Assembly (NCBI GenBank): GCA_946406665.1
Contig: CAMJLE010000004.1
Location: forward strand, 1-48,105
Length of the DNA stretch: 48,105 nt
DNA from: an uncultured Candidatus Saccharibacteria bacterium
Lineage (GTDB): Bacteria > Patescibacteriota > Saccharimonadia > Saccharimonadales > Saccharimonadaceae
Direction: 5' to 3'
Shown piece by piece: positions 14,498 to 38,394 of the stretch; within the stretch, counting starts at the first letter, position 1, and the number at the start of each line of letters is the position of its first letter. The position numbers and the translations under genes are program-made. Below the pieces are notes generated by a model. The model was not told the origin of the DNA and made no database searches. It saw nothing but the letters and a program-made list of their open reading frames with translations.

Positions 14498-15412
14498 TTA
14501 TGGCTCAAAAGCGTTGGCGTAATGTAGGATGTCTTTTGGAGTTTTTGGGGTGTTTTTCTGTGTAAGTAGTGGCTGTGGAGTCGCTAAGATATGCCACTCG
14601 TCGTCGATGTTTTTAAGTAAGACACGATAGTGGGCACAGATAAGATCTTTGTCGTAGTCGTATTTATAGAGTGTGGCTACGTAGTATTGCCCCGCAATAT
14701 ATTCGCCTTCCGATAATTTATACGTGTCGGAAAGTTGAAAACTTGCTTTGATTGTTTCTTCCGGATCGGATTTTGGGGATTCGTTATATGATGAAAATGG
14801 ATTTTCGGCAGTGAAATCGATTTGATATATTGTTGGATCGATATCTTCTAGGTTTTTGATTTTTTGGACGGCTGCATCGAGATATTCAGGGGCTGATTTA
14901 ACTGTAATACTTGGCGCTTCGTTTTGATGATAAATGTAGCCGATCGAATAAAGACGGTTATTAATTGGGAGGTAGTTGAGGATGGGGTATTGTTCTTTGA
15001 TTGCTCGTCCTTCTTGGCTAAGCGCTTGTCCAACAATCCCCTCGGTTTCGATGAAATCTTGTTGGTGGGCCTTGATATATGCTTCACCTTCACTATCGGC
15101 GGCCTCGAGAATGCCGACAATATAGCGATATTTAGCAGATATTTCAACCTCCCTTTCGATTGTTTTAAAATGTTCGAATTCGATTTTTGCTGAGTATTTG
15201 CCAGGCTCTAGCCAGACTTGGGAGTTGTTATTTATTTTTGTGCCATTTAGCGTAATAGTCGCTTCGTATGGTGCATATTGGACAGTGGTTGGAACTTTAC
15301 CAATTCTACTGATGGATATGACGATAAAATAAATAATACCAACAAATATTATTGTGGAAAGGATAAAGAAAATGACGCGTTGTTTTTTATCTAGATTTTT
15401 AATTAGATGCAT
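14498..15412 (-). CDS. Membrane-anchored protein with PEGA-like domain
   Basis: The 304-aa protein has one N-terminal membrane helix (about 12-35) and an extracellular part. Residues 42-85 look like a PEGA domain (ATITLNGTKI, then WLEPGKYSAKIEFEHF). The rest is alpha/beta with many Tyr and no recognised family. It is the last gene of the minus-strand T4SS-like cluster, 11 bases after the peptidoglycan hydrolase gene, with AAAAAGGG before the ATG. PEGA domains occur in surface proteins, so a role anchoring or organising the apparatus at the wall is plausible but unproven. Confidence 0.75.
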   Translation of the reverse strand: MHLIKNLDKKQRVIFFILSTIIFVGIIYFIVISISRIGKVPTTVQYAPYEATITLNGTKINNNSQVWLEPGKYSAKIEFEHFKTIEREVEISAKYRYIVGILEAADSEGEAYIKAHQQDFIETEGIVGQALSQEGRAIKEQYPILNYLPINNRLYSIGYIYHQNEAPSITVKSAPEYLDAAVQKIKNLEDIDPTIYQIDFTAENPFSSYNESPKSDPEETIKASFQLSDTYKLSEGEYIAGQYYVATLYKYDYDKDLICAHYRVLLKNIDDEWHILATPQPLLTQKNTPKTPKDILHYANAFEP

Positions 15413-15423
15413 TGCCCTTTTTC

Positions 15424-17202
15424 CTAATTATTAAAAAATGATGGTATTTCGAATGAATTGAAAGTTGGACTACGATACCAACGTACAATTGCTCCATTGC
15501 CAAACGTGAGGTCTTCTGAACCAGCCATCGGCGCGCGCCCAGCCCCCCTTGTGGAATATGACGCGGATGCGATTACGCTGTTAAAACCTGGTATTTCGCC
15601 GACGTAAATAAAAGTATGGCCACTAGAGAATGCGACGTCGCCTGGTTGCAGGAGGCTAGTATCTACGAATGTACCGACCGAGTCGTTGATTAGTTGCCAG
15701 CCATGCGATCTAACCCAGGCTTCTTGCGTACTAGTGTTGCCCTTAGAATCGTTATAATTTGGTTCTAGGCCGGAATTTTGCACAAGGATAGTTACGAAGC
15801 CACCACAGTCTATACCCGGAACGCCAGCAACAGAGCCACCAACGTAGCGACCTTCGCTAATTGATTGATTTACGGCGTCAGCATAAGCAGGCATGCGGTC
15901 GTGCCATGGGGCAGGATGATAGTCTGGCCAGGCGTAACTTGTGACGAGAGACTGGAATTCGCCATTTACACTACAGCCATTCTCATTGGTATTGGAATTG
16001 ATTGCTTTCCAGATAGTTTCAGCAAAGAGGGTTTTCCCGGCGTCGTTGGGATGGAGTTGATCTTCCTTAAGATATAGCTCCGGTTCTTGGGAGACGGTGA
16101 AAGCCCAATCGGCGATAATGATATTCGAGCTAGATTTAGCGAGTTTTTTGAATAAGACGTTATTTGAAGTATGGAGATTTTTGTCTTTTCCGTTATAACC
16201 GGTTATAAGGACAATAGTTCTATCGGGCCCAAGTACTTTAAGGGCTGCATCGATTCGCTCTTGGGTGAGTTTGGGTGAATTTGTGCCAAGTGCAAAGACG
16301 ACGATGTCCTTTAGATTCATTCCATTCGCTATCAAAACACCCTCTTCCCATCCGCGTCCACTTCTTGCGTTAATATCTACTTCGGTGAGGTCGGAAAATT
16401 TTTTCATGATGGCTTCGCGGGAGCCGACTGTAATGGAGTCGCCAATTACCGTCATGTGCTTGCCGGTTTCGAGGCGGCCGGATGCGCCGCTAGTACTTTT
16501 AATACCCTTGCCAGAATATTTATTAAAATATTCTTTTGCGAATTCGCGGCGCCTTTCGGTTGCTTGATATAGGCGACCTGCATAAGGCGCATAATATTTG
16601 ATTTCGGAATTGCCGCCAACGGCGCGCTCGAATAAGACAAGGAATATTTCGGCAGCCATTTCGGGTGAAGTGGCTTTTTTGATTTCTTCTTGCCAGTTTA
16701 AGTCTTTTTCGCTCATGGTGAACTCGAGTTCGACGCGAAGAATGCCATCATAGTCGTCTTGGGGCATTTTTTTCTCTGCGTCGCTACCCCAATATTCTTT
16801 GGAGGTATATTTATCGAACCCTACTTCTTTGAGTTTTGCGAATAGGCGATCCTTTCGTCCGCCTCCCCATTGAAATAGTCCCCAATATGACGAGTTGCTG
16901 GCGCGAGTGGCGCCTGGGCCGGATTCTGCCTTTGCGTTACCGAGAATTCCGGCAGTTTGCGCATCGGTGAAGCCCTGCTCGATGAAGAAGTTCCATATTT
17001 TTTCGTCTATATCTTTCCCGTTTAGCATAGTGGCGGTAGTGTTGCAGTCATTAGCGTTGCCGGCGGGATTGTAATAATAAATGCCATTTTTGTCGAATAT
17101 ATCCAGAATATCTTCGCTAGGAATAGCAGCATAGGAAGGCGTTACTATAATAATGGCGGAGATTATGGAAAAGAGTGGTTGGAGGATTTTTTTAATTGTC
17201 AT
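15424..17202 (-). CDS. Secreted three-domain peptidoglycan hydrolase (lysozyme, SGNH, NlpC/P60)
   Basis: The 592-aa product has a signal peptide (1-25) and three enzyme-like domains. Residues 64-230 match phage-tail lysozyme-type domains (likely catalytic Glu93 in KAESG, plus YWGLFQWGGG). Residues 248-400 form an SGNH hydrolase with GDSI (254-257), GTN (306-308) and DQLHPN (Asp381, His384). Residues 440-578 look like NlpC/P60 with Cys466 in IDCGGFV and His529 in SGHTFIYVG. Together they could cut glycan, remove O-acetyl groups and cut the peptide. It overlaps the upstream 950-aa gene by 4 nt, so it probably plays the VirB1-like wall-opening role for the T4SS. Confidence 0.88.
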   Translation of the reverse strand: MTIKKILQPLFSIISAIIIVTPSYAAIPSEDILDIFDKNGIYYYNPAGNANDCNTTATMLNGKDIDEKIWNFFIEQGFTDAQTAGILGNAKAESGPGATRASNSSYWGLFQWGGGRKDRLFAKLKEVGFDKYTSKEYWGSDAEKKMPQDDYDGILRVELEFTMSEKDLNWQEEIKKATSPEMAAEIFLVLFERAVGGNSEIKYYAPYAGRLYQATERRREFAKEYFNKYSGKGIKSTSGASGRLETGKHMTVIGDSITVGSREAIMKKFSDLTEVDINARSGRGWEEGVLIANGMNLKDIVVFALGTNSPKLTQERIDAALKVLGPDRTIVLITGYNGKDKNLHTSNNVLFKKLAKSSSNIIIADWAFTVSQEPELYLKEDQLHPNDAGKTLFAETIWKAINSNTNENGCSVNGEFQSLVTSYAWPDYHPAPWHDRMPAYADAVNQSISEGRYVGGSVAGVPGIDCGGFVTILVQNSGLEPNYNDSKGNTSTQEAWVRSHGWQLINDSVGTFVDTSLLQPGDVAFSSGHTFIYVGEIPGFNSVIASASYSTRGAGRAPMAGSEDLTFGNGAIVRWYRSPTFNSFEIPSFFNN

Positions 17203-20051
17203 ATTGCGAAATTCCTTCGGTCGATAATGATTGGTTCGGTTGAGACGGCAAGAATAGCCAAGGCTGGAGTTCGGGTTTGTGTGAAGCTTATTTCGACCTT
17301 TTGGGGCTCTGTGTATGGCCCGAATTTGATACGCTCGGAAGGGTTATAATTGGCGATTTCGGTTGAATAATCAATATATTCCAACAAGAAGGTAATATCG
17401 TCCATACTCAAGCCGGTGGTGCGGGATAGTGTGCCTTTGAAGCTAGTGTCTAGCGGGTGGTCTTCGCGGTATTTTTTCTCATATGCTAACACCGGATTAT
17501 TTTCGGCAGATTTTGGCCCCTCCATGCCTTGGATGATACGCATATCGCCAACGAATAGCTGGTAATACTTTATTTCGGAATCCCAACGAGGATTGGTGCT
17601 AGTGTTTCTGCAAGTATCTCCAGTTCCCCAGCCCTGATTCGCAACGTCTCTTCCCGCATTGATAACGTCGATGATTTCGTTTGCAATTGGGGCATTATTA
17701 ACGACAGACCCAGCATCGACATGGAACGCATTCATAATATTAGCGTCCATTACACCCCATTCTGATTGACGATTAGTGCAGGCGATGAGGAATTTCGATA
17801 ATTCGGAACCGTCTTTAATGCTCCCGTCTTCGTTTAGATTTGGTTCGATTGCGGCGCGATAGGCTGGGTCGTCTGGTTTAGTGTCGGTAGTACTCTCGTC
17901 GTAACTAACGATGGGGTGGCCATATGAGTCACATACGACATCCTTAAGGTTTGGACATTCGGTGTGCTGGCTAATATAAGACAGTGTTTGGTCAATAGCT
18001 GAAGCGCCTGGGATTAATGAGCGCATAGAACTTCCTACGACGCGGGAGATATTAGCCGTCCCGGAGATTAGAGGATTTGAATATGAGAGATATGAGAACT
18101 TAGAGACGATTGATCCTAGGAAAGTGTTGGGACTCGAAGCGTCAAATGGGCTACGATGGAGGCGGTCAATTTCAGCCTCTTGGGCTATTGCGATAGTTGT
18201 CTGGCGGTTAAGATTTTTAACGCTCTCTTCTGAGGCTGGCATAAAGGCACTACCTTTGGTGGCGAGTGAGAAGTTTGCAGCGGCGGCCCCTTGCGAGAGC
18301 CATTCTCCGGCGATGATGCCAGTGTGTGTCTCGAACATATCTGAGGTGAGCATTTTTGCTATACGGGGGACGATTGTGCTAATGATGGCGGCGACGGTAC
18401 TAGCAAAAACGATACGATTAACGGTTTGAGCGATAGCGCCGATGGCGAAGAATGCAAGATTGCCTCCTGGTACGGAGTATTTCGTTAGTGAAACAATGGC
18501 GGAGCTAGCCGTAACAAGAGAGCATGCTGCGGTTGTAGCGCCGGAGAGTGCAGCAAGGCGCCAGACGGCGTTAGTGATGCCGTTGAGCGAATATGGTTGA
18601 AAACTAGTTTCTGGTGAGGGGGTGTTACCTAAGACTAATTGTGCGCCAGGTGATTGTACCGGCGAGCCGGTGACGGTTTTGGTGACAAGTTTGCCGTCTT
18701 CATCGATATAATCAACAGTGTTAGTAGTTTCGCGTGTGAGATGATTGAGTGCCTCATTGACGCTAGAGGCGCCTTTGCCGCCGTACATCATCTGGCTAAT
18801 AGGTTCCATAAAGCTAAGGAAATAAGCGATTGATTGACCGATTTGGTGAGCAGATATAACGACGTTGAGAATAGAAGCGAGTCGCAGCATGGAGCACGTA
18901 GCTCCGCCGGCTGCCGAAACTTTACCGGCCAGTTGGTTGACTAGCGAGTGAGCTTGGGCCACGGAGTCGGAGCCTTCGAGATTATTAATTTCAATGTTGT
19001 CACCATTTGTGGATGTGGTTGTTTTACCATTCTCGTCGGTTTCGTCATGGACAGTATTAATGACTGTGTTACCACTATTGCCAATAGTATTGCCATTTAC
19101 GGTATCTTGAAAAAACATTCTTCTAGTATCTTGATCGGCGGATGGATCAAAGTCTGACATTGTATTGCGGTTTGTGGCGCCCGGCCAATTCCCAAAAAAG
19201 TCGTCAGATGACTCGTCGAAGAAACCGGCAACTCGGCCGCGCTTGGCGGAATAATAGGCATCGCGAAAATTGGTGTTTGAGGCGAATTCGTCTTGGAAAG
19301 AATCGGCACTGATAATCTTGTCTTTATACCGGAGAACGGTCTTAGATCCGAGAATGGCCTGTCCTGCCTCGAAGTTGTTGTCTCCATTGATGTGTCCTAC
19401 CTCGATGCCATTATTGGCAAGGCGTTTTTGGAGATATGGGGAGAAAACCGTGTATTTATTTGAGAGAATGCCTGGTTTTATTTGGCTACCGCCGTCAAGC
19501 ATATAAGAAATCAGGCGTGCGTTACGGAGATTGTACGAAGTATATTGCAAGTCGGTTGCTTGAGTATATAGTGCAGAAAGATGCGCTGGAAGCATGGATT
19601 GAGCGGCGTAGAAAAAGATGCCACCGCCAAAAAGCACGGCAGCTATGGTGCCGATGGGGCCGGCTTTTTTGAAGAACAGAGCCATATCGATGGAGCTGGC
19701 TTTTTTGAAGAACCAACCCATTTTCTTTTTATTCGCATTCTTGTTATTAAAGAATGGGCGTTGCTCTTTGGGATTAGTATTCTTGCCGTGAACATTATTT
19801 GTGTAGCCCCCACTACGCGATGAGGACTTACTAGTGCGGCGATTCTTGGATGAACTTGGTTCGGGGTTTATAGGGCTATTTTCGCCGTCGGTTAGTGGTG
19901 TATTGGTTTTTTTCTGTGATTTTAACGCTGTTCTTTCTCCATGAGAAAGAACGCCGGTTGCGGCCAGTCGCGCCTCTTCCATCCATTCATTATGAGGATT
20001 GTTGGGGCCGCGCCATTCTTTGTTGGTGTTTTCTTCTGGTGTGGAGACCAT
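17199..20051 (-). CDS. Large T4SS-cluster membrane protein
   Basis: The 950-aa protein has a hydrophilic N-terminus with Ser/Asn/Lys-rich sequence (1-115), a membrane helix at about 130-152, an Asn/Thr/Asp-rich stretch (280-360) and several hydrophobic segments around 390-420 and 500-580. It is a paralog of the 1002-aa protein at 289-3297 (shared layout and the SPFD...TF.GS block). It lies directly downstream of virB4 and overlaps the wall hydrolase gene by 4 nt, so it is very likely a structural part of the secretion machine. It has no match I can name. A TATAAT five bases before the ATG suggests a leaderless or near-leaderless start. Confidence 0.8.
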   Translation of the reverse strand: MVSTPEENTNKEWRGPNNPHNEWMEEARLAATGVLSHGERTALKSQKKTNTPLTDGENSPINPEPSSSKNRRTSKSSSRSGGYTNNVHGKNTNPKEQRPFFNNKNANKKKMGWFFKKASSIDMALFFKKAGPIGTIAAVLFGGGIFFYAAQSMLPAHLSALYTQATDLQYTSYNLRNARLISYMLDGGSQIKPGILSNKYTVFSPYLQKRLANNGIEVGHINGDNNFEAGQAILGSKTVLRYKDKIISADSFQDEFASNTNFRDAYYSAKRGRVAGFFDESSDDFFGNWPGATNRNTMSDFDPSADQDTRRMFFQDTVNGNTIGNSGNTVINTVHDETDENGKTTTSTNGDNIEINNLEGSDSVAQAHSLVNQLAGKVSAAGGATCSMLRLASILNVVISAHQIGQSIAYFLSFMEPISQMMYGGKGASSVNEALNHLTRETTNTVDYIDEDGKLVTKTVTGSPVQSPGAQLVLGNTPSPETSFQPYSLNGITNAVWRLAALSGATTAACSLVTASSAIVSLTKYSVPGGNLAFFAIGAIAQTVNRIVFASTVAAIISTIVPRIAKMLTSDMFETHTGIIAGEWLSQGAAAANFSLATKGSAFMPASEESVKNLNRQTTIAIAQEAEIDRLHRSPFDASSPNTFLGSIVSKFSYLSYSNPLISGTANISRVVGSSMRSLIPGASAIDQTLSYISQHTECPNLKDVVCDSYGHPIVSYDESTTDTKPDDPAYRAAIEPNLNEDGSIKDGSELSKFLIACTNRQSEWGVMDANIMNAFHVDAGSVVNNAPIANEIIDVINAGRDVANQGWGTGDTCRNTSTNPRWDSEIKYYQLFVGDMRIIQGMEGPKSAENNPVLAYEKKYREDHPLDTSFKGTLSRTTGLSMDDITFLLEYIDYSTEIANYNPSERIKFGPYTEPQKVEISFTQTRTPALAILAVSTEPIIIDRRNFAI

Positions 20052-20056
20052 AGATA

Positions 20057-20062
20057 ATTATA
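20057..20062 (-). promoter_or_regulatory. -10 box close to the start codon
   Basis: TATAAT on the minus strand ends five bases before the ATG at 20051. It lacks the TGn extension, so this is a weaker case than the others of its kind. Confidence 0.4.
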
Positions 20063-20112
20063 TTCTACAATATTTTATAGTTTATGTCGAATATGGAAAA
20101 CGGGCGAAGTGG

Positions 20113-21912
20113 TTATCTCTTGGCGGTTTCGGTAGGGTTGGTAGTAATAAGGTCTTCTTCGGTGTCGGAGGCTACGATTTGGATATGAACGTGGTTTTGA
20201 CCGGCGAAGAATAAACCTTGACCTACTGGGAAGTTAGATAGGCGTTTGCGCTCCTCAGCCGTGAGCTTGAATACATCGGAAAGAACATCAACAGCAGAAG
20301 CGGATTGCTTGAGGAGTAACTGCATAGATGAGTTAGCGACAATGGCGCGGCCCATTTTTGAAGACATGAAGTCTTCTACGTCCTGCGTAATAGTTGTGAG
20401 GCCAAGGTAATATTTACGAGCGCGTTTAGCTAGGCTGAAGAGGAAGTTGGCTGAATCTTCGTATTTCATGAGCTGCCAGGCCTCATCTACGAGGAGGAGG
20501 CGACGTTTTTGTTGTGCGCGAACGATATTCCAAATATGAGAGAGGACGATATACATTGCAACTGGACGGAGCTCGTCTTCAAGATCACGAATATTAAAGA
20601 CGGCCATTTGGTTATTGATATCGATGTTTGATTGTTGTGAGAAGATGCCGGCGAAGCTACCGGTAGTGTACTTGCGGAGGCGCTGAGCCAAACTAGGGCC
20701 AGATCCGCCCATATGCAAGAGAGTATCAAACAAGTTCATGATGGTCGGCGGTGTTGCCGTGTGCGTGAGAGGGTCGTTAGTGATGCCGGCGCGCGCGTAG
20801 GTATCGATTAAAGCCTGATCGAGATCGGCTTCTTCGTTGGCGGAAAGGCCGCCGCCGTTGCCAATCATGAGACGGAAGAGGCCGTGCAATGTAATGAGGT
20901 TTGCGCGGAGCGCGTCGTTGGCATCTTCGGCATCGATAACTCTTGGCAGGTCGAACGGGTTGATACGTACGTCGGAGTTGAGGCTAAGGCGGATATATGC
21001 GCCGCCGACGGCGTCGCATAGTTTTTGGTACTCATTTTCTGGGTCGATAATGAGTATTTCGGTACCAACCATCATGGAACGAAGCGCCTCGAGCTTTACG
21101 GTGAAAGATTTACCTGCACCGGATTTTGCGAAGACGACCATATTGGCGTTTTCAAGCGTGAAGCGATCGAAGATAACGAGACCGTTGTTATGCATATTAA
21201 CGCCATATAGAATACCTTTCTCCTGAGTGAGATCGGCGGAGGTGAATGGAAAGCTGGTTGAAATTGCGCCGGTATTCATGTTGCGGCGAATTTGAAGTTG
21301 ATCGGAACATTGTGGCATCGTGCTGTTCATGCCCTGCTCTTGTTGCGAGCTGGCTACTTTACTGAAGACCATCTGCTGACCAAAGATGTTTTCGATTTTA
21401 TGTTGGACAAATTGAAGCTCGTCTAGAGAGTCGGCGTAAATGGTAACATAAAGGCCATAACGGAAGAATTTTTCGGCGCCAACCTGAAGTTGATCGCGGA
21501 GATCTTCGGCGTCGGAGATGGCTGCTTCGAGCTCCGGGTCGCGAACGCGGCCTTTCTCGTTGTTAATATTCATGCTAGCTTCAAGCTGGGTGACTTTTTT
21601 GGTGAGGTTTTTCATGACGACGCCCGTATCTACTGGGTAGATATACATGGACACGTCAATTACCTCATCGATATTAATAATAGAGCTGAGCCAGCCGGTA
21701 TATAGCATGCGAGGGTAGCCATAGACGTAGATAGTGCGGCCATATTTGGTACCGAGACGGAAATAATCAGAATGAATTTCGATACTGGATGGCGAGATGA
21801 GATCGCGGAGGGTGGTAATACCGGTTTCGAAGGCTTTTTGGATTTCGACTTCTTCTTGAAGCTGCGCTTGCGCGGCAATGTCGGCAGCGCTGAGTTGTTT
21901 AGCTTTTGCCAT
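20113..21912 (-). CDS. virB4: VirB4-family T4SS ATPase (motor half)
   Basis: The 599-aa protein has a RecA-like ATPase with Walker A KSGAGKS (263-269), the IIDPENEYQ block (288-296) and Walker B LLLVDEAWQ (472-480), all typical of VirB4/TraC motors. Residues 1-230 are an N-terminal region found in VirB4 proteins. It would hydrolyse ATP at the inner side of the secretion channel and drive pilus assembly. The 288-aa gene immediately upstream, two bases away, resembles another TraC N-terminal domain, so the motor appears split over two genes. AAGGAG stands before the ATG. Confidence 0.93.
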   Translation of the reverse strand: MAKAKQLSAADIAAQAQLQEEVEIQKAFETGITTLRDLISPSSIEIHSDYFRLGTKYGRTIYVYGYPRMLYTGWLSSIINIDEVIDVSMYIYPVDTGVVMKNLTKKVTQLEASMNINNEKGRVRDPELEAAISDAEDLRDQLQVGAEKFFRYGLYVTIYADSLDELQFVQHKIENIFGQQMVFSKVASSQQEQGMNSTMPQCSDQLQIRRNMNTGAISTSFPFTSADLTQEKGILYGVNMHNNGLVIFDRFTLENANMVVFAKSGAGKSFTVKLEALRSMMVGTEILIIDPENEYQKLCDAVGGAYIRLSLNSDVRINPFDLPRVIDAEDANDALRANLITLHGLFRLMIGNGGGLSANEEADLDQALIDTYARAGITNDPLTHTATPPTIMNLFDTLLHMGGSGPSLAQRLRKYTTGSFAGIFSQQSNIDINNQMAVFNIRDLEDELRPVAMYIVLSHIWNIVRAQQKRRLLLVDEAWQLMKYEDSANFLFSLAKRARKYYLGLTTITQDVEDFMSSKMGRAIVANSSMQLLLKQSASAVDVLSDVFKLTAEERKRLSNFPVGQGLFFAGQNHVHIQIVASDTEEDLITTNPTETAKR

Positions 21913-21914
21913 GA

Positions 21915-22781: not shown

Positions 22782-22790
22782 GTTGACTCC

Positions 22791-23774: not shown

Positions 23775-23780
23775 ACTTAT

Positions 23781-23789
23781 ATTTTAGCA
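23781..23789 (-). promoter_or_regulatory. Extended -10 promoter, leaderless start
   Basis: TGCTAAAAT on the minus strand is followed by six bases and the ATG at 23774. It would start a PrgI-TraC-VirB4 transcript. Confidence 0.6.
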
Positions 23790-23826
23790 CAATCGTTAAT
23801 GTTTGTTTTGGCATGGATGCTGCCTT

Positions 23827-26760
23827 CTACCAATCAGTATTAACGCCAAGCATTTCGCGGATTTCTTTGTTCATAGCGGTACGTTGGTGGGTGGCATTTG
23901 GTTTATTGAGACCATTAACCATGGCTTTGACGGATGGGTTGTTGAGGAGTTCCTTGCTGACCAACATATCTGTGCCCATGACTGTTCTGACTTCGCAGTT
24001 GGTTGGGTCCATTTCAAGCAAGGCAGCATTGATGCCCTTGATAGTCGAGCTCTTAGAGGTGGCCAACTGACTCTGTACCATGTTATCGAGGTAACTAATA
24101 ATTCGAGCATGAATGGCGGCTTGGTGATTTCTAAAGAAGTCGCTTTGATTGCCGAAGGTTGGATGTAGGGGGTCTTTCCCGAATTTAGAGAGGTTAAATC
24201 CACCGAGGAGCTGTCGATCGTGCATGGCGAGCTGTTCACCATCCATGAGACCGGATACGGCGGCGGTGCGGAAGTGCTTCTCTGGAATGAGGAGTGGGAG
24301 CATCTCTTCATTGCCGCTACTATCGGTCGGAATAGGAATAGTACCATCTTCGATCATCTTGAAGATCTGTTTATATACGGTGCGATCCTGAGATGCAACA
24401 GGAGCCCAGCTACTGAGGTCGTCGAAGATTTGTTGCAGAGTGGCTTTTTGGATGTTGTCTTTGGCTTGGTCACTAGTGCCGTCGCCGGTCATATATTTAC
24501 CCTGGATGAAGGTCTTGAAATCGATGTATGGGGCGACGTTGTCTGCCGTGTTATTTGGATCGTTATGTTCGCTCATGCTGCGGCGGATCATGTTAGATTT
24601 AGCCCATGCCCAGACGTAGAGGTTGTCGTTTTTGAGAGTAAGACAAGCATCGGCAAGACTTTTCTGCATAGCGTAATCGTTCTTGATTTTGTCAGAATAG
24701 TCGGTTAGGGTCTTGATAATATCGCCGTGGTCGCCACGTTTAGCCATAGTGAGAAGCGCAGCTTTGGCGGAGTTGTAATCTTTCGTATCGAAGGCCTCAA
24801 TGAGACGTTTTTGATTGTAGCTACCAGATGGCGAATCGTCGTAGAGCGCGAGATAGCTCGCCTCCATCTCGGAGTCGACGCGGCGTTTCTGGGAGATGGC
24901 GTCGGCAAGGACGTCGTTGACGGCGCGCTTGACTTGACGTTCTTCTTCTGAGCCAGCGGCAGGATTGCTATTATAGCGGAACGCGTCGGTGACTTGTTTG
25001 TAAATATCGGAGCTAGTGCGGGTGTTTTCGTCACTTAGGGCTGTGCGTATCTTTTTGGCGCGGCTTTCCATATTATCGCGTGCAACACTGCGCTGGCGAG
25101 CTTTAGCAATAGCGTCGTCGACAATATCTCTTTCGAACCCTTCATTGGTTGCGGCAATTTGAGCGTTGCGCATCTGGCGAATGATTGGAATACCAGCTGC
25201 GGAGCCGTTATCGAGGCCCTTATCCATATCAGTTTCGAATTGGGTGCGTTCGATGGTGTTGCGTAGTTTTTGACGTTGCATATTGTAATAACGAACGCCG
25301 CGTCCGTTAGCTCTGCCATCGCGAAGCATACTCGTGGCGGCACGGGTCATGTAGGTATCTTTGTTGTTAGCGACGGTGTTAGTCAGATCGAATTCGCGCT
25401 GTGCGCGACGCTGTTCGAGCCAGCGCGCTAGACGATTGGACGGAAGAGTACTTGTGCCATTGAGCTGGCGAGCGCGAGCGAGTGCATGGCCTTCCATGCC
25501 GCGACGACGTAGCATGCCCGAAGCCGGATCGGTGACGCGATGCATGAATCTGTCGATGCCTCCGAGAACGGTGCCCGACATGCGCAGGAGCGGAATAGAC
25601 AAGAATAGTGGCAGTACTTGAATAGCTATGCCAAGAACGACGCCGAGCCAGCTAGTCGCGGAGGTGATAGTTACGAAACCGGCTAGCTGAGTGGCGCCGT
25701 AAAGGACGCTAAACATTGGATAGAAGAAAATCATACTGAAGAACATCTGATACCAGGTGCGGAACCATTTTTCGGTGTTTGGCAATAAGTAACAGACGAA
25801 AGCAAGTGGAGCAACCATTACTAATAGGAAGATAAGCGCTTGACGGGCAGCCATAGTGATGACGGCAGAAATGATTGCAACGGCGCCGGCGAAAATGATT
25901 GGAAGTAAGAGCCAGATAAGGCCGATGACGCCGCCAGAGAATGCTAGCGTGATGGTGGTGCCAATTGTGCCGATACCGAGGATAGTCGCAACGACACCCG
26001 CAAATGATAGATTGGCAATCTGTTCATTAATAGCGCCGTCGGTAATGGCGGCCGTTTCGATGTTTGTGAATACGCTGCGTAGGGCGATGCCGAATATATT
26101 GCTAAGGTCGACGGCAAATGTACAGATAGTGTAGCTTAGGTTGATTAGGATAGCGGCGATGATGAGGCGAGGTAGCATGCGCTTGATGCCGTAGTTCGTA
26201 ATGCCTAATCCGGTAAGTTGCGAAAAGATAATGACAAGGAAAAAGGCCACGAATATGAGATTCGTGATGCTTCTGATGTAATCCCAGACTACATGGACGG
26301 GCGATTTTGCGTCGTTGGGTAGTGGATTGACGCGGAGCAGATTGTCGAGAATGCCATAGGCGCCGTCAATTACATTAGCAAAGAAGACGGAGCCAGGACA
26401 TACAAGCCAGCCGAGGCCGCCTACTTGGTCATAGCAGGTTGGATCCTGCTTTTCTTCTCCCGAATCGTTTTCGTCGGTCTCCTCTTCCTCGTCGGCGTCG
26501 GTGTCGCTCTTCTTCTTTTTCGGGTTAACCTTAAGGCTAGGATTGGTGGTAGTTCCAGGGGTTGTAGTGCTTGGAGTGGTCGTCGTACCTGGGGTGGTAG
26601 TGCTTGGAGTGGTCGTGCTAGGGGTTGATGGGGTTGTGGTGGTGGTTTCAGGGGTAGTAGTAGAATTTGTTGGGGTGGCAAAAACCGGACCGGCTATAGC
26701 ATTAATGCTAAGGACGGTCGCTAATGCGAATATAGCTACTTTTTCGAGCCACCTTCTCAT
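23827..26760 (-). CDS. VirB6/TrbL-like polytopic T4SS protein
   Basis: The 977-aa protein has a signal peptide (1-29), a Thr/Pro-rich repeat tract (30-75), an acidic stretch (80-105), a Cys-containing segment, then six or more membrane helices between about 155 and 400, and a long charged cytosolic tail (about 410-977). This layout fits VirB6/TrbL-like proteins that form the inner membrane channel of T4SS. The tail of over 550 residues is rich in Arg, Asp and Gln with helical character and has no family I recognise. It lies at the head of the minus-strand cluster and is divergent from the pilin operon. Confidence 0.85.
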   Translation of the reverse strand: MRRWLEKVAIFALATVLSINAIAGPVFATPTNSTTTPETTTTTPSTPSTTTPSTTTPGTTTTPSTTTPGTTTNPSLKVNPKKKKSDTDADEEEETDENDSGEEKQDPTCYDQVGGLGWLVCPGSVFFANVIDGAYGILDNLLRVNPLPNDAKSPVHVVWDYIRSITNLIFVAFFLVIIFSQLTGLGITNYGIKRMLPRLIIAAILINLSYTICTFAVDLSNIFGIALRSVFTNIETAAITDGAINEQIANLSFAGVVATILGIGTIGTTITLAFSGGVIGLIWLLLPIIFAGAVAIISAVITMAARQALIFLLVMVAPLAFVCYLLPNTEKWFRTWYQMFFSMIFFYPMFSVLYGATQLAGFVTITSATSWLGVVLGIAIQVLPLFLSIPLLRMSGTVLGGIDRFMHRVTDPASGMLRRRGMEGHALARARQLNGTSTLPSNRLARWLEQRRAQREFDLTNTVANNKDTYMTRAATSMLRDGRANGRGVRYYNMQRQKLRNTIERTQFETDMDKGLDNGSAAGIPIIRQMRNAQIAATNEGFERDIVDDAIAKARQRSVARDNMESRAKKIRTALSDENTRTSSDIYKQVTDAFRYNSNPAAGSEEERQVKRAVNDVLADAISQKRRVDSEMEASYLALYDDSPSGSYNQKRLIEAFDTKDYNSAKAALLTMAKRGDHGDIIKTLTDYSDKIKNDYAMQKSLADACLTLKNDNLYVWAWAKSNMIRRSMSEHNDPNNTADNVAPYIDFKTFIQGKYMTGDGTSDQAKDNIQKATLQQIFDDLSSWAPVASQDRTVYKQIFKMIEDGTIPIPTDSSGNEEMLPLLIPEKHFRTAAVSGLMDGEQLAMHDRQLLGGFNLSKFGKDPLHPTFGNQSDFFRNHQAAIHARIISYLDNMVQSQLATSKSSTIKGINAALLEMDPTNCEVRTVMGTDMLVSKELLNNPSVKAMVNGLNKPNATHQRTAMNKEIREMLGVNTDW
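26535..26670 (-). repeat. Thr/Pro low-complexity coding repeat
   Basis: Codons 30-75 of the VirB6-like gene repeat short units of the type TTTPSTTTPGT. The DNA shows it as recurring GGAGTGGTCGT-like units on the plus strand. After signal cleavage this tract would be outside the membrane and resembles glycosylated stalks. Confidence 0.75.
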
Positions 26761-26769
26761 AACTCTTCT

Positions 26770-26778
26770 ATTATATCA
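26770..26778 (-). promoter_or_regulatory. Extended -10 promoter for the T4SS cluster
   Basis: TGATATAAT on the minus strand ends nine bases before the ATG at 26760, giving a leader of only two or three bases. Confidence 0.6.
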
Positions 26779-26865
26779 CACATAAGCTTTTTAGTCAAGT
26801 ATTATAAGAGATAAACTGCCAAAAAACCAATTATACCCTGCCCTCCTAAAAAATGCGATAGCTTA

Positions 26866-26874
26866 TGTTATAAT
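26866..26874 (+). promoter_or_regulatory. Extended -10 promoter for the pilin operon
   Basis: TGTTATAAT begins 50 bases before the ATG at 26916, giving a leader of about 35 nt. It diverges from the promoter at 26770. Confidence 0.6.
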
Positions 26875-26915
26875 GTCTCTATAAATTAATGGTCAGCTGA
26901 GTAAGTAATAATTTT

Positions 26916-27383
26916 ATGCAGATAAAACATTTTTTCAAGAGAATTGCGTTAGTATTAGGGGTGGCAGCGATGGGGATAATGAGTCTCGGTGGTGGATTAG
27001 CGTGGGCGGAAGCGCCGGCAGACGTGACGGTAAAGCCTGAACGTGAGGAGAAATGCGCGACCATCTTGTATGTTTTTTGCGAGTCGGCCGAGAATAATGG
27101 CGAGCAGACGATAAAAGATTTAATTAAATTCATAATTAGCGTCATATCCATAGGTATTGGCGTATTGGCGACGATTGGCATAATTATTTGTGCTTACATG
27201 ATAATGACCGCAAAGAACAATGACGCACAGGTAGCAAAAGCGAAGACGCGGCTACTAGAGATTGTGATAGGGGTTGTTGTTTGGGCGGTTGGCGCGGGTG
27301 TGATTTTGTTGTTGGTACCAGATGAAGAAGCGGCAAATTTCGCCGAAGATGCGGCAGTGATTAATATGGAGATAAAAGAATGA
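26916..27383 (+). CDS. VirB2-like pilin subunit (diverged)
   Basis: The 155-aa protein has a signal peptide (1-31, ending LAWA), a short extracellular loop with two Cys, and two membrane helices at about 70-94 and 108-128 joined by a charged loop (KNNDAQVAKAKTR). This is the VirB2/TrbC pilin layout. It is the most diverged copy of seven in the window, since it lacks the GG-x2-Y-x2-S-x-G signature. Its TGA overlaps the next ATG (ATGA). A weak GAGTAAG precedes the start. Confidence 0.8.
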   Translation: MQIKHFFKRIALVLGVAAMGIMSLGGGLAWAEAPADVTVKPEREEKCATILYVFCESAENNGEQTIKDLIKFIISVISIGIGVLATIGIIICAYMIMTAKNNDAQVAKAKTRLLEIVIGVVVWAVGAGVILLLVPDEEAANFAEDAAVINMEIKE

Positions 27384-28183
27384 GAAAAAAACTAACTTCT
27401 TTTGGATTAAGCCTCGCAGTTGCGTTGGTGGCGGTTTTAGGCGCTGTTTTCGTTGCGGATAATCATGCGATTGCAATGTCCGATACGCTGATTGCGGTAC
27501 AGGCCAAGGGTACTGATGGCGGTAGCGGTGGCAGTGGCAATAGTGGCAGCTCAGAGGCAACGACCGGAACCGATAATGGCGGTAGTGCTGATACTAAGAC
27601 GGGGTCTGGAAATAAGTGTAGTGAGCATCATTTTATGGGGCTACGCGCATGGTATGACAATGTGGAGGCGGTATGCAGTGGCAGACAGCCGGAAGATGAG
27701 TATGCACTTCGTGCAATGATCTGGCTAATTGTATTAAATCTCGTGACGATGGTTTTGCAGGTGGCTGGCTACGTTTGTGTCGGTTTTGTAGTTTGGGGCG
27801 GATATCAATATATGCTCTCAAGGGGTGATGCGGGTAAAGTCGCGAGCGGCAAGAAGACTATAACGAATGCCTTAATCGGCATTGCTCTTTGTATGACTGC
27901 TTCCCTGATTTCTGGCGCAATAGTGGATATTACGTCTGGTGCGGCGGCGAACGATGCTACTTTCGTGGCATCGTTGTTTAATACGGCGTTTTTGTGGGCA
28001 GGTATTGTGTGTGCGATCGTTATCGTAATGGGCGGTATTGCATATGTAACAAGTACAGGCGAGCCGCAAAAGGTTTCTATGGCAAAGAATACTATTATGA
28101 ATGCGGCGATTGGCTTGATTATTACTTTGCTTGCGGCGGCGATTGTGAATCTGGTGGTTAATGCAATTAATAATGGCGCATAG
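27380..28183 (+). CDS. Tandem VirB2-like protein (two pilin units fused)
   Basis: The 267-aa product has a signal peptide (1-32), a Gly/Ser/Thr-rich linker (43-75), a Cys-containing region, then two copies of the two-helix pilin unit. Unit 1 carries WGGYQYMLSRGDAGKV and unit 2 MGGIAYVTSTGEPQKV, each followed by an AK/GKK-T-I and second helix. Four membrane helices result. It overlaps the preceding gene by 4 nt. Single-chain dimer pilins are unusual, so it may form a specialised base or tip piece. Confidence 0.8.
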   Translation: MRKKLTSFGLSLAVALVAVLGAVFVADNHAIAMSDTLIAVQAKGTDGGSGGSGNSGSSEATTGTDNGGSADTKTGSGNKCSEHHFMGLRAWYDNVEAVCSGRQPEDEYALRAMIWLIVLNLVTMVLQVAGYVCVGFVVWGGYQYMLSRGDAGKVASGKKTITNALIGIALCMTASLISGAIVDITSGAAANDATFVASLFNTAFLWAGIVCAIVIVMGGIAYVTSTGEPQKVSMAKNTIMNAAIGLIITLLAAAIVNLVVNAINNGA

Positions 28184-28209
28184 TAGTCTGAGCTAGAGAA
28201 GGAGAAGGA

Positions 28210-28509
28210 ATGATAGATAAGATTAAAACCATACTAGCGAACGTAGATATCGGCGGACAAGTTAGAAGCATTGAGGGGGGCGACGTCAGTTTAGAGGCGT
28301 CTGTTCGAAATATATTGTCGGTCGTGTTTGCGGTGGTTGGTATTGTTGCGGTAATTGTAATAGTTGTAGGTGGCGTTAATTATATAATTTCGCAAGGTGA
28401 TGCCTCAAAGATCCAGAAGGCAAAAAATACTATTTTGTACGGAATTGTTGGCCTAATCGTGACCCTAGCGGCGTTTGCAATAGTGAACTTTGTAATGAGT
28501 GGTCTATAA
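28210..28509 (+). CDS. VirB2-like pilin subunit, no signal peptide
   Basis: The 99-aa protein has two membrane helices (about 35-56 and 75-97) with the family motif GGVNYIISQGDASKIQKAK between them, then YGIVGLIVTLAAFAIVNF. The first 30 residues are polar with no signal sequence, unlike the copies at 26916 and 28587. GAGAAGGAG stands before the ATG. It follows the tandem-fusion gene by 26 bases, so it is in the same operon. Confidence 0.82.
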   Translation: MIDKIKTILANVDIGGQVRSIEGGDVSLEASVRNILSVVFAVVGIVAVIVIVVGGVNYIISQGDASKIQKAKNTILYGIVGLIVTLAAFAIVNFVMSGL

Positions 28510-28586
28510 TTTTATACAAATTAATGTTGTAATATGATAGAATTACATTAAAGTTTTCGTTTAAAGAATTGAAGGAGAAAAACTGA

Positions 28587-29084
28587 ATGAAAAAAAGTGG
28601 CATATTAGCGAGAGCGTTCGTGGCAGTAGCTTTCGTTGCGATTATGTTAGGTGGCTCGTTCGCTAGCGCGCTGGATGCGTGTGTTGGTGAAGGAAACAAG
28701 TATCCTAATTTGGCCATTGATAACCCTGGTGATGGCTATGTTTATTGCCAGAGAGTCAAAGTTAACGAAGAATATCACAATATTTACGCAAAGTCTTCTC
28801 ATGACTGTGCGCAGGCAGGTGCTCTAGCAACTAACCCAGATACCTGTAACGATGGCGACCTCAACGATATGATCAGAATGATTATTACTACTGTTATCTT
28901 TGCAGTAGGTATGGTTGCGGTAATTATGATTATCATTGGTGGCGTTAACTACGCTACGTCTCAGGGTGATGCCGCTAAGGTTAAGAAAGGTAAAGACACG
29001 ATTCTCTATGGTATTATCGGTCTCGTAATTGCGATATTGGCCTTTGCGATTGTAAGCTTCGTACTTAGCGCCCTTCAAAGTTAA
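28587..29084 (+). CDS. VirB2-like pilin subunit with Cys-rich ectodomain
   Basis: The 165-aa protein has a signal peptide (1-29), an extracellular stretch of about 60 residues with five Cys after the signal, then the two-helix unit with GGVNYATSQGDAAKVKKGK. Such a Cys-bearing head makes it the most elaborate single-unit copy here. AAGGAGAAAA stands before the ATG. The 77-nt gap before it contains -10-like sequence (TGATAGAAT near 28534), and a terminator follows, so it may have its own promoter. Confidence 0.82.
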   Translation: MKKSGILARAFVAVAFVAIMLGGSFASALDACVGEGNKYPNLAIDNPGDGYVYCQRVKVNEEYHNIYAKSSHDCAQAGALATNPDTCNDGDLNDMIRMIITTVIFAVGMVAVIMIIIGGVNYATSQGDAAKVKKGKDTILYGIIGLVIAILAFAIVSFVLSALQS

Positions 29085-29108
29085 TTAAGCGAAAAGAAAT
29101 TCTAAAAA

Positions 29109-29134
29109 GCACCCTCCTCTGCGGGGGTGTTTTA
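29109..29134 (+). terminator. Terminator after the fourth pilin gene
   Basis: CACCC pairs with GGGTG around a CTCCTCTGCGG loop and is followed by TTTTATT. Confidence 0.65.
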
Positions 29135-29147
29135 TTGTGGCTTTTTA

Positions 29148-29156
29148 TGTTATTAT
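29148..29156 (+). promoter_or_regulatory. Extended -10 promoter
   Basis: TGTTATTAT gives a leader of about 18 nt that contains the AGGAG site of the gene starting at 29181. Confidence 0.55.
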
Positions 29157-29180
29157 TTAAGGCAAATAAGGAGAATAATA

Positions 29181-29606
29181 ATGAAGAATCTTAAGGATGT
29201 GGCAAAAGAGGCAGGAGCTGTTCTCACGATTGCTGCATTGACGGTAGCAACGACTGGTGTGCGTGTATTCGCCGAGGGCGGAACTGCCGGCGGTGACGGC
29301 GGTGAGGTGTCCGGAGGAGGCGCAACAGAGAATGCGCGAAATGGCGTAAATAATGTTAACCCTGGTGCAGAGACTGATTTGAACAAGATGGTATCACTAA
29401 TTTTTAACGTTGTCTTTACGGTCGTAGGTGTAGTTGCAGTAGCATTTATTATCATTGGCGGCGTTAATTATATATTGTCTCAGGGCGATGCCGCTAAGGT
29501 GCAGAAGGCAAAGAGCACGATTCTATACGGCGTAATTGGCCTAGTAGTTGTGTTGTTGGCGTTTGCGATTGTAAACTTCGTACTTAACGGTCTAGCAGGA
29601 CAGTAG
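29181..29606 (+). CDS. VirB2-like pilin subunit with Gly-rich N-terminus
   Basis: The 141-aa product, from the ATG with AAGGAG upstream, has a signal peptide (1-28, ending VFA), a Gly/Glu-rich extracellular segment, and two membrane helices with GGVNYILSQGDAAKVQKAK between. A longer frame upstream exists but has no ribosome site and reads through the promoter. It is the clearest match to the family consensus. Its terminator (29625) is followed directly by the next promoter, so each of the last pilin genes is a separate unit. Confidence 0.85.
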   Translation: MKNLKDVAKEAGAVLTIAALTVATTGVRVFAEGGTAGGDGGEVSGGGATENARNGVNNVNPGAETDLNKMVSLIFNVVFTVVGVVAVAFIIIGGVNYILSQGDAAKVQKAKSTILYGVIGLVVVLLAFAIVNFVLNGLAGQ

Positions 29607-29624
29607 ATTAAACTAGCTACATCG

Positions 29625-29654
29625 ATGCCCCTGCCCCGAGTGCAGGGGCATTTT
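29625..29654 (+). terminator. Terminator of the fifth pilin gene
   Basis: A perfect 10-bp stem (ATGCCCCTGC with GCAGGGGCAT), loop CCCGAGT, then TTTTG. Confidence 0.85.
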
Positions 29655-29659
29655 GTTTA

Positions 29660-29668
29660 TGGTATTAT
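29660..29668 (+). promoter_or_regulatory. Extended -10 promoter, leaderless start
   Basis: TGGTATTAT is followed by seven bases and the ATG at 29676. It begins only six bases after the terminator T-run. Confidence 0.6.
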
Positions 29669-29675
29669 TCATAAT

Positions 29676-30008
29676 ATGAATAGGCCATTGAATGTTGCGC
29701 AAATAATTGGCGAAGTGATAGATCCGGGATCAGCTCATGAGGGAGCGTCGCAAATAATACGAACCCTGGAAGGGCCGGACTTAATCGAGATTGTGAGGAA
29801 TCTATTAAATACGACGCTCGGAGTGGTCGGAGTGGTTGCAGTGATTATGATAATTATCGGCGGTTTTTATTATACGACATCGCAAGGGTCGCCAGAGAAA
29901 GTGCAAAAAGGTAAAAATACAATTCTGTACGGGATTGTGGGGATGATTATATGCTTATCAGCTTTTGCGATTGTGAATTTTATTTTGGCAAGCTTGAGCG
30001 GGAGTTGA
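29676..30008 (+). CDS. VirB2-like pilin subunit, leaderless
   Basis: Starting at ATG 29676 the product has 110 residues: a polar N-terminus without signal peptide, then two membrane helices (about 46-66 and 84-106) separated by GGFYYTTSQGSPEKVQKGK. A frame extending upstream would translate the terminator hairpin of the previous gene and is rejected. No Shine-Dalgarno is present, consistent with a leaderless mRNA from the -10 box at 29663-29668. It ends in TGA. Confidence 0.8.
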   Translation: MNRPLNVAQIIGEVIDPGSAHEGASQIIRTLEGPDLIEIVRNLLNTTLGVVGVVAVIMIIIGGFYYTTSQGSPEKVQKGKNTILYGIVGMIICLSAFAIVNFILASLSGS

Positions 30009-30027
30009 TCTGTTCATAGAAGGCAGC

Positions 30028-30061
30028 AAAAAAGTCACTCGGTTTCTTGAGTGACTTTTTT
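30028..30061. terminator. Bidirectional terminator
   Basis: A 13-bp perfect stem (AAAAAAGTCACTC with GAGTGACTTTTTT) has runs of A and T on both sides. It serves the pilin gene and the convergent Hsp20 gene. Confidence 0.9.
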
Positions 30062-30067
30062 GTGAGA

Positions 30068-30586
30068 TTAGTTAATCTGAATGCGCTTTGGAGCTTCGGT
30101 CTTTTCTTTTTCGAAGGAGATAGTAAGGACCCCGTCTTTAAGGACAGCCTCGACGCCATCTTCTTTGACCTGAATTGGCAATGCGATAGTGCGGCTGAAT
30201 TCGCCCCAGTAGCATTCTTGGATGTGCCATTGAGTAGCTTTGTCGTCTTCTCCGCCATTGAGAACGCCGGAAATAGTTAGGATGTTGTCTGAAATTGAGA
30301 CATCTAGATCTTTGCGTTCGATGCCTGCAGTACGAGCCTTGATGACGAGTTTGTCGTTGGTTTCATATACGTCGACTGCTAATTGGCCTGGGATATCGTC
30401 GGCGCCGTCATCCCAACCCTCGCCGTCATCGACATATTCTTCTTCTACGATGGTAGTTTCTTCTGCTGGAGTGTTGACTGGAGTTTCCACCGGTTCCTCT
30501 TCTGCAACTAGTCCAGAGTTATCGCCCTCTAAAAAGGCTGCTGTGAGCTCATCATCTAAGCTCATGTCGTCTTGTTTACGAGCCAT
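30068..30586 (-). CDS. Small heat shock protein, Hsp20/alpha-crystallin family
   Basis: The 172-aa protein has an acidic, Glu/Thr-rich N-terminal region (1-63) and an alpha-crystallin domain (about 66-165) with LVIKARTAGIERKDLDVSI and the closing GVLTISFEK. It holds unfolded proteins in an ATP-independent way. The long acidic N-terminus is unlike the usual hydrophobic Hsp20 N-terminus. GGAGG precedes the ATG. No CIRCE-like repeat is seen upstream. Confidence 0.92.
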   Translation of the reverse strand: MARKQDDMSLDDELTAAFLEGDNSGLVAEEEPVETPVNTPAEETTIVEEEYVDDGEGWDDGADDIPGQLAVDVYETNDKLVIKARTAGIERKDLDVSISDNILTISGVLNGGEDDKATQWHIQECYWGEFSRTIALPIQVKEDGVEAVLKDGVLTISFEKEKTEAPKRIQIN

Positions 30587-30675
30587 AGTTTTTTATATTC
30601 CTCCACTAATTTACACTCTTAAGCTTTATTATAGGGGGCATTATTCGTAAAATCAAGAAGAAAGGAGGCTTTGTT

Positions 30676-31344
30676 GTGAAAAATACAATCATTGGGAAAA
30701 TTGGCGAAGCGATATGTCCTCAATCATGTATTTCATGTGGAAAAGTAGGTGGATTATTATGTGAATGTTGTAAAAAATACATCACGGAGGGCGATAATTG
30801 TAAATGTTTAAGGTGTGGTCAGAAGCTATACATGAGAGTTTGCAAGAATTGCGAACTGCCCTTCCGGGAGCAATACTGAGTCGGCGAGAGAGCGGATTCA
30901 TTGAGGGCGCTGATTAATTTATATAAATATGAATGTGCGAGAAGTTGCGCGACGATTTTTGCGAATCTACTTTTTGAAATGTTTGGGTCATTTACGAACG
31001 AAAAAATAATCGTGCCTTTACCTACAATAGAAAAACATAAAAGGATGCGCGGTTTTGATCATACGGGATTATTGGCGCGGAGGATAGCGTGAAGGTGTGG
31101 CGGAAATGTAGCGTTATTAATGGGGCGGCAGAATAATGCCGTACAAGTGGGCGCGAGCGCGGAAATGCGATTCAGGCAAGCTAATAACGCATACCGTATT
31201 GTCGACGTCGTGAGTTGCGATAATGAGTATATGTTATTGGATGACGTATGGACGACTGGTAGCAGTATGATGGCGGCTTGTGAGCTGTTCAAAAAGAATG
31301 GGGCCAGGAATGTGTCGGTAATTGTATTAGCTAAAAGTGGGTAA
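30676..31344 (+). pseudogene. comF: comF homolog interrupted by two in-frame UGA codons
   Basis: One reading frame from GTG 30676 (AAAGGAGG upstream) to TAA 31342-31344 encodes a complete ComF-like protein of about 220 residues, except that TGA codons stand at 30877-30879 and 31090-31092. Visible ComF parts are the N-terminal zinc finger (four CxxC pairs among Cys residues 14-56), the LINLYKYE motif after the first stop, RMRGFDH, and the phosphoribosyltransferase loop MLLDDVWTTGSS after the second. There is no frameshift. ComF helps DNA uptake in naturally competent bacteria. Either this is a recent pseudogene or the UGAs are read through. UGA ends normal genes nearby. Confidence 0.8.
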
Positions 31345-31346
31345 AA

Positions 31347-31745
31347 CTAGACCGTCGTAGTGCCGCCGACTGCGCTGATGACGAAGTTGACAATTGCAAA
31401 AGCGAGGATGGCAATGATGAGGCCGATGATGGCGTACATAATAGTATTTTTAGCATCGGTGACCTTTTTGCTGTCGCCGCCCGAAATGATATAGCGGAGA
31501 CCACCTACAATCAGCATAATTACGGAAATGATACCTACAGCGAAAAGTACGGTGTTGGTGATTTTCGTGAAGACGCCACTCGTACCAATAAGGTCTGCAG
31601 GCATGCCGTTAGCGCGGGCAGCTTCGGCGCCGGCCTGGGCGGGGTTATCATAATTCATAGCGGCCATAGCTCTACCGGTCATAAGAGTAGCCATGGTGGC
31701 TGCGCCAGTAAGAATTTGCCCTGTTTTCTCTAATGCTTTTTTCAT
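31347..31745 (-). CDS. VirB2-like pilin subunit, minus-strand copy
   Basis: The 132-aa product has a signal peptide (1-28), a short extracellular part, and two membrane helices (about 60-84 and 102-126) with GGLRYIISGGDSKKVTDAK between and YAIIGLIIAILAFAIVNF after. It is the seventh copy, lying apart from the operon and convergent with comF with only two bases between stops. No clear Shine-Dalgarno is visible upstream of the ATG. Confidence 0.82.
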   Translation of the reverse strand: MKKALEKTGQILTGAATMATLMTGRAMAAMNYDNPAQAGAEAARANGMPADLIGTSGVFTKITNTVLFAVGIISVIMLIVGGLRYIISGGDSKKVTDAKNTIMYAIIGLIIAILAFAIVNFVISAVGGTTTV

Positions 31746-38374: not shown

Positions 38375-38394
38375 TTGAATAACGAGAGGTGGTT

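Follow-up and report, generated by a model that had tools for sequence, protein, structure and literature searches.

Type IV secretion systems (T4SSs) encoded in the chromosomes of Patescibacteria have been described in several reports. S. epibionticum cannot grow on its host without its T4SS cluster, which includes pilins (PMC10633639), and the T4SS genes of TM7x show higher expression at first encounter (PMC10768705). The Patescibacteria-clade T4SS (Quinonero-Coronel, 2025, PMC12102498; S. epibionticum SEML1_0006-0019, PMC10633639) comprises VirB4, TrsD, PrgI, VirB6 and a multi-pilin VirB2 array, has a lysozyme and a peptidase encoded just downstream of virB4, lies near dnaA, and has no linked relaxase or type IV coupling protein (T4CP). 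The same features are found at positions 14498-31745 of contig C4, a stretch of 48,105 bases (the window in what follows) from the genome of a rumen-type Candidatus Saccharibacteria bacterium, which is 756 kb in 47 contigs and 84% complete. With a VirB2-like array near virB4, no linked relaxase or T4CP and a VirB4 belonging to the clade found beside the replication origin (ori-type), the locus is the published Patescibacteria T4SS (PMC12102498, PMC10633639), an already known system; the implication of a first-pass annotation of this DNA that the apparatus is unrecognised is not supported. The window locus carries an SGNH domain inside its wall hydrolase and otherwise shows no substantive difference from the described system (a comparison that did not extend to the S. 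epibionticum sequences themselves). New here are this SGNH domain, the orthology of the pilins, the contrast with integrative conjugative elements (ICEs) and the presence of related pilins on Gram-positive plasmids. The nearest public records are named Candidatus Saccharibacteria, with ruminant sources predominating, and include one VirB4 match that is 99% identical.

The core of the channel is encoded in a minus-strand operon (14498-26760) with the transcription order VirB6-like protein, PrgI, TrsD, VirB4, a protein of 950 amino acids (aa), hydrolase and PEGA-domain protein. The VirB4, PrgI/VirB3-like and VirB6-like genes claimed by the first-pass annotation are all present. The VirB4 ATPase (599 aa, 20113-21912, minus strand) reached 392 bits for the NCBIfam CD1110 family, whose cut-off is 325, which makes it MPF_FATA-type, and matched the VirB4 structures 4ag5 and 4ag6 in the PDB with E 1.7e-55, with no other PDB relatives at the chosen threshold. 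The gene is present in a single copy in its own genome, and the protein is 73–86% identical across the family and 29–38% identical to the VirB4s of Gram-positive plasmids. From its sequence matches, the adjoining gene (288 aa, 21915-22781, minus strand) is TrsD, the N-terminal region of VirB4 as a separate gene; the match to NCBIfam TrsD (E 3.6e-8) is below the curated cut-off yet in the region expected, and the match to the VirB4 N-terminal region has E 8e-5. The PrgI/VirB3-like protein (22791-23774, minus strand), whose 327 aa include a long C-terminal tail, matched Pfam PrgI with E 1.4e-11 and 45.2 bits against a cut-off of 27. An extended, polytopic VirB6-like protein (977 aa, 23827-26760, minus strand) has at least six hydrophobic segments within its first 400 aa, and in hhalign its profile aligned with that of the ICE-type TrbL/VirB6 proteins of relatives over 282 columns (probability 95%, E 2.4e-8); Pfam VirB6 gave no match to it. 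TFAM matches at its C-terminus (E 5e-4 to 0.06) were judged to be chance matches of helical low complexity. PrgI/VirB3, TrsD (below its curated cut-off) and VirB6 are thus all encoded beside virB4, as expected of a monoderm (MPF_FATA) system, and the locus is a complete monoderm MPF_FATA-like T4SS, chromosomal and next to the origin. Outer-membrane parts (VirB7/9/10) are normally absent from monoderm T4SSs. None was found among the Pfam-scanned open reading frames (ORFs) of the block, so that their reported absence holds and is no sign of an unusual system.

The secreted wall enzyme of the operon (592 aa, VirB1-type, 15424-17202, minus strand) consists of a signal peptide, a lysozyme domain (residues 67-229), an SGNH domain (252-402) and an NlpC/P60 domain (about 460-590). 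A fused wall hydrolase had been claimed for this locus, and it is confirmed by matches to Pfam Phage_lysozyme2 (E 8e-20) and, weakly, to Pfam NlpC/P60; the SGNH domain is added to it as a third. The nearest solved structures to this domain are those of the OatA SGNH domain (PDB 5ug1, 5ufy; E 5e-8), the likeness consisting of the sequence match and the GDS and D..H motifs. The catalytic motifs are present in both domains, GDSI and DQLH in SGNH and DCGGF and GHTF (the Cys and His) in NlpC, and the three-domain makeup and the motifs are kept in the wall enzymes of close relatives. Complete homologues were counted in the order lysozyme-SGNH-NlpC (20) and SGNH-lysozyme-NlpC (3), and in more distant loci the enzyme is often shorter or duplicated, without SGNH. 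Unlike OatA, the wall enzyme has no acyltransferase-3 membrane domain, and its SGNH domain is embedded between lysozyme and NlpC/P60. Judged from these features, the domain may be an esterase as readily as a transferase. An esterase that would unblock O-acetylated peptidoglycan is the preferred reading because the acyltransferase-3 domain is absent.

Divergent from the virB operon and 155 bp away is an array of six pilin genes on the plus strand, which confirms the two divergent blocks described earlier. Pilin 1 (26916-27383) is TrbC/VirB2-like and clusters with the family while scoring below both pilin cut-offs. Pilin 2, with two pilin domains (27380-28183), and pilins 3 (28210-28509), 4 (28587-29084), 5 (29127-29606) and 6 (29625-30008) are all over the cut-off for PF18895 ('T4SS_pilin'), and the array matches the NCBIfam Mbov_0395 pilin-like family just under its cut-off. 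A seventh, separately transcribed pilin (31347-31745, minus strand) matches PF18895 with E 7e-11. The VirB2-like genes of the first-pass annotation are therefore found, as PF18895 genes at 27380-30008 (plus strand) and 31347-31745 (minus strand) together with the first gene of the array. Pilin 7 occupies the same slot in relatives, where it is 69–95% identical if present, and hsp20 and a separate minus-strand pilin were both found in 46 loci. When all pilins were compared by BLASTP, 327 of 332 had their best match outside their own genome, a figure somewhat inflated by best matches to near relatives. The pilins of slots 1, 2 and 4 were reciprocal best matches at the corresponding position in 15 of the 15 close relatives compared, as were those of slot 7 in the close relatives that have it, with slots 3, 5 and 6 less resolved. 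The 2025 survey raised antigenic variation of the pilins as a possibility (PMC12102498). Because the counterparts of a pilin are found in other genomes and not in its own array, long-standing subunits with fixed roles are more likely than a recent amplification for antigenic variation.

Outside Patescibacteria, plasmids of Embleya and Streptomyces each yielded one small PF18895 ORF and those of Pontibacillus two, in every case immediately upstream of VirB6. The four had E values of 9e-14 to 8e-22 among 860 ORFs, the next best being 0.04, and Pfam confirmed PF18895 in all four; no pilin-profile match was obtained for 36 other small plasmid ORFs with at least two hydrophobic segments. The Pontibacillus pilin gene is annotated as an Mbov_0395 pilin-like conjugal transfer protein. 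In the T4SSs of the Embleya and Streptomyces conjugative plasmids and the Pontibacillus plasmid, the pilin and VirB6 are followed by a TrsD-like protein and VirB4 (37–38% identical), and NlpC/P60 enzymes are encoded nearby on the Embleya and Pontibacillus plasmids, as at the window locus. Unlike the window locus, the Embleya and Streptomyces plasmids encode VirD4, and Embleya also a Replic_Relax relaxase; the plasmids carry one pilin or two instead of a large array, and lack the 950-aa protein. The 2025 survey left it open whether the T4SS had brought its pilins with it (PMC12102498). They probably came along with the module, since PF18895 pilins directly precede VirB6-TrsD-VirB4 on Bacillota and Actinomycetota plasmids. 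According to a review, VirB2 is missing from Gram-positive T4SSs with the exception of Patescibacteria (PMC12857230). The plasmid PF18895 genes indicate that VirB2-like pilins do occur in Gram-positive conjugation modules, which bears on both reports (PMC12857230, PMC12102498).

The locus was also compared with mobile elements. No homologue of VirD4, Replic_Relax or serine recombinases was found in the window (tyrosine recombinases were not searched separately), and none in any of 101 ori-type loci at the thresholds used for ICE-type loci, flank lengths varying among the loci compared. Across the genome (84% complete), five relaxase families gave no match, the search with PF01076 having no positive control, in agreement with the first-pass annotation, which had seen no relaxase in the window. 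Its statement that VirD4 is missing holds for the locus and fails genome-wide, as two VirD4-like ATPases (1075 and 949 aa) are encoded elsewhere, beside gyrB and other housekeeping genes. Relatives of these ATPases occur in 60 of 61 family genomes, and they are not tied to the T4SS because they are also kept in genomes without VirB4; in line with this, the t4cp gene of S. epibionticum is not essential (PMC12102498). The same family holds ten second T4SSs (among loci L059-L069) whose VirB4s are only 37–39% identical, and in the fetched stretches of these ICE-type systems VirD4 lies directly downstream in all ten, Replic_Relax is present in five and a serine recombinase in two. They share with the window locus the order pilin, VirB6, PrgI, TrsD and VirB4, and two have a CHAP hydrolase after VirB4. 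They differ in the presence of VirD4, relaxase and recombinase, in a first pilin that is often fused to VirB6, and in lying away from the origin, one of them ending at a tRNA-Glu.

An intact or decayed ICE inserted at tRNA-Ser, its relaxase and coupling protein lost or hidden, was considered as an explanation of the window locus. A tRNA-Ser does lie at the right edge, 107 bp past the last pilin, the genome has two VirD4-like ATPases, and ICEs of the same family use the same core. The longest direct repeat shared by the two flanks is nevertheless 12 bp, with no att-like repeats, and no part of the tRNA-Ser of at least 13 bp is repeated in the window; the position of the locus is fixed beside recF or dnaN in many genera, the 101 loci gave no Replic_Relax or serine recombinase matches, and the VirD4-like genes sit among housekeeping genes and are kept without a T4SS. 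This explanation is accordingly very improbable, and the view that the locus is not a standard conjugation element came through the search for an adjacent relaxase or T4CP and for att flanks. A mobile conjugation element can clearly be set aside for this locus, which is vertically maintained.

Gene order was compared across Saccharibacteria, as the first-pass annotation had proposed. The order recF, PEGA-hydrolase-(950-aa)-virB4-trsD-prgI-virB6, pilins-hsp20 is kept in 20 of 20 sampled genera, with accessory genes lost or duplicated, and in about 80 further loci from named genomes. Such recurrence is far above chance. Within a single part of the tree, the T4SS locus has lost its place beside dnaA-recF. 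The gene virB4 was found in 53 of 61 family genomes and in 37 of the 41 good ones. In a tree of Saccharibacteria ori-type, ICE-type and plasmid VirB4s (other Patescibacteria classes were not sampled), the ori-type proteins form one clade with support of 100/100, apart from the likewise fully supported ICE-type clade and from the plasmid proteins; the deep branching among these types, with its long branches, was not resolved. A record titled Nomurabacteria (L082), a title that may be wrong, has a Saccharibacteria-type VirB4 that is 88% identical to that of the window.

With modest confidence, we favour the reading that this chromosomal Patescibacteria T4SS combines a membrane channel, a wall enzyme and a multi-pilin pilus directed to the host in a non-conjugative machine that most likely passes proteins. 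The channel would be made up of VirB4 and its separately encoded TrsD together with PrgI and the extended VirB6. Peptidoglycan would be opened by the three-domain hydrolase, whose SGNH domain probably takes off or transfers the O-acetyl groups by which lysozyme is blocked. Driven by VirB6 and VirB4, several different pilins, specialised as major, tip or base subunits, would assemble into a pilus that reaches the host cell. The machine would not conjugate its own DNA because it is without a relaxase and a dedicated coupling protein; protein export to the host would be the first choice and uptake from the host the main alternative. Several points weigh against this reading. No substrate, effector or secretion signal was identified for the T4SS, its structural part, the pilus included, is drawn from homology, and the unlinked VirD4-like ATPases could serve as coupling protein. 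Furthermore, four genomes that are at least 91% complete (G003, G045, G056, G057) are without virB4 and trsD, G003 and G057 also without a PF18895 pilin, and all four keep both VirD4-like ATPases; on account of these genomes the T4SS is common in the family and neither universal nor universally needed. The roles put forward by the first-pass annotation, in contact with the host, delivery of proteins or uptake of DNA, remain inference, as the computed data do not separate them or decide the direction and substrate of the T4SS.

Uptake, in which the T4SS would pull in DNA, nucleotides or other host nutrients like the Helicobacter ComB T4SS or the archaeal Ced/Ted systems, is appreciably less probable than protein export. 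Uptake has been proposed in reviews, comEC being dispensable in S. epibionticum but the T4SS essential (PMC11665869, PMC10633639), and it agrees with a locus that has no coupling protein or relaxase and has a comF gene beside its pilin array. However, the relation to CedB is weak (50 bits against a cut-off of 700), the comF gene has in-frame stops here, and a wall hydrolase with a pilin array is compatible with either direction. An organelle of adhesion or bridging, in which the pilin filament mainly holds the host and transport is secondary or absent, is doubtful. Such an organelle would suit the six to seven pilins, the missing coupling protein and the higher TM7x expression at first encounter (PMC10768705), but VirB4, VirB6 and the three-domain wall hydrolase are retained although a pure adhesin would not need them, and these bacteria are described as having distinct type IV pili for attachment (PMC12206443).

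Two further proteins of the operon are less readily placed. The PEGA-domain membrane protein (304 aa, 14498-15412, minus strand; Pfam PEGA E 9e-5) has one transmembrane helix and a PEGA beta-sandwich, and its AlphaFold2 model has a predicted local distance difference test (pLDDT) score of 91.7. Residues of about 215-286 align weakly to NTF2-like entries including the conjugation protein 3ub1 (Z 4.1, root-mean-square deviation 4.6, 72 residues), and a plain Foldseek search of the PDB gave nothing at E < 0.001. The protein is a candidate VirB8-type subunit; few VirB8 proteins were found in the published Patescibacteria survey (PMC12102498), and none is certain in the window locus. When the PEGA profile was run on plasmid T4SSs, the sole match was a Chloroflexota plasmid (L161), where a PEGA-domain protein (5579-6442) is encoded upstream of VirB4. 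The 950-aa membrane protein (17199-20051, minus strand) keeps its position between hydrolase and virB4 in 32 of 38 recF-linked loci and is missing from some lineages. It had no match in Pfam, NCBIfam, or PDB sequence or fold searches, the AlphaFold2 model being poor (pLDDT 61), and a role as second VirB6 was rejected after hhalign against VirB6 profiles gave probabilities of 0.3% and 12%. Thus, of the two large proteins listed earlier as unknown, one is the extended VirB6, and the 950-aa protein is without a recognised relative or fold. A distant paralogue of the latter (1002 aa, 289-3297, minus strand; 24% identity, E 7e-28) lies about 7 kb beyond dnaA, on its other side.

On the origin side the operon adjoins a plus-strand dnaA-dnaN-recF block (10714-14493), which anchors the locus. 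This block consists of dnaA (10714-12081), matched to the ORF of a family member and assigned by gene order, a small ORF, dnaN (12371-13474; Pfam DNA_pol3_beta) and a recF-like gene (13474-14493; Pfam SMC_N/RecF), and GC skew is positive from about 12 kb onward in the window. The first-pass annotation, whose named components all lie where it had placed them, did not mention this neighbour; hsp20, comF, TrsD as a separate gene and the SGNH domain are further corrections to it. The 155 bp that separate the virB operon from the pilins (26761-26915) form a divergent promoter region that has on its minus strand TTGACT-17-TATAAT with TG before the second hexamer (11 of 12 matches), a consensus match only, and in the promoter scan matches were no more frequent than in shuffled sequence. 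The pilin array is followed by a terminator candidate, hsp20, comF and the seventh pilin. The probable bidirectional terminator (30009-30067), read directly as a near-perfect stem with a T-run (AAAAAAGTCACTC...GAGTGACTTTTTT), sits between the convergent pilin array and hsp20 (30068-30586, minus strand; Pfam HSP20 E 2.6e-19), a kept neighbour at the array end. An Rfam scan of 9-34 kb returned tRNA as the sole match.

The comF gene (30676-31344, plus strand) keeps one frame across 222 codons, broken by two in-frame TGAs. In 12 of 60 comF orthologues, all of them close relatives of the window (the window itself, L072, L076, L077, L080, L084, L090, L092, L101, L105, L128 and L039), there are one or two internal stops, always TGA and never TAA or TAG, and no frameshifts. 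Several of these TGAs are common to diverged lineages, and one stands at the near-invariant Trp of a DDVWTTGSS motif. As among intact orthologues, codons have diverged more at the third position than at the second. Elsewhere in these loci TGA serves as an ordinary stop (41 of 329), and CCA was the sole kind of tRNA-Trp among 28 tRNA loci examined. Read-through, recoding or slow decay are possible. Elsewhere in the window are encoded a secreted 789-aa protein with ricin-type lectin domains (3987-6356, plus strand), lytic transglycosylase-like in its N-terminal part by eye only, with an adjoining LCP-family gene (6387-8129), and a serpin-family protease inhibitor (35170-36936, plus strand; E 1e-45) in an ultrasmall bacterium. 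A 902-aa protein with a VWA domain and a bacterial TSP3 repeat (38389-41097, plus strand) is a possible surface adhesin.

The Patescibacteria T4SS is essential in the sole species tested. The present comparison cleanly separates the origin-linked machine from its ICE-type cousins in the same family. As a wider picture, put forward tentatively and as rather unlikely in its entirety, an essential non-conjugative T4SS with orthologous pilins of fixed role, its module and pilins derived from a Gram-positive plasmid set of pilin-VirB6-PrgI-TrsD-VirB4, and its wall enzyme de-acetylating and cutting host peptidoglycan, may form a two-way conduit between epibiont and host. Within it, the action of the SGNH domain on O-acetylated peptidoglycan would be a specific predicted enzyme activity, which can be assayed.

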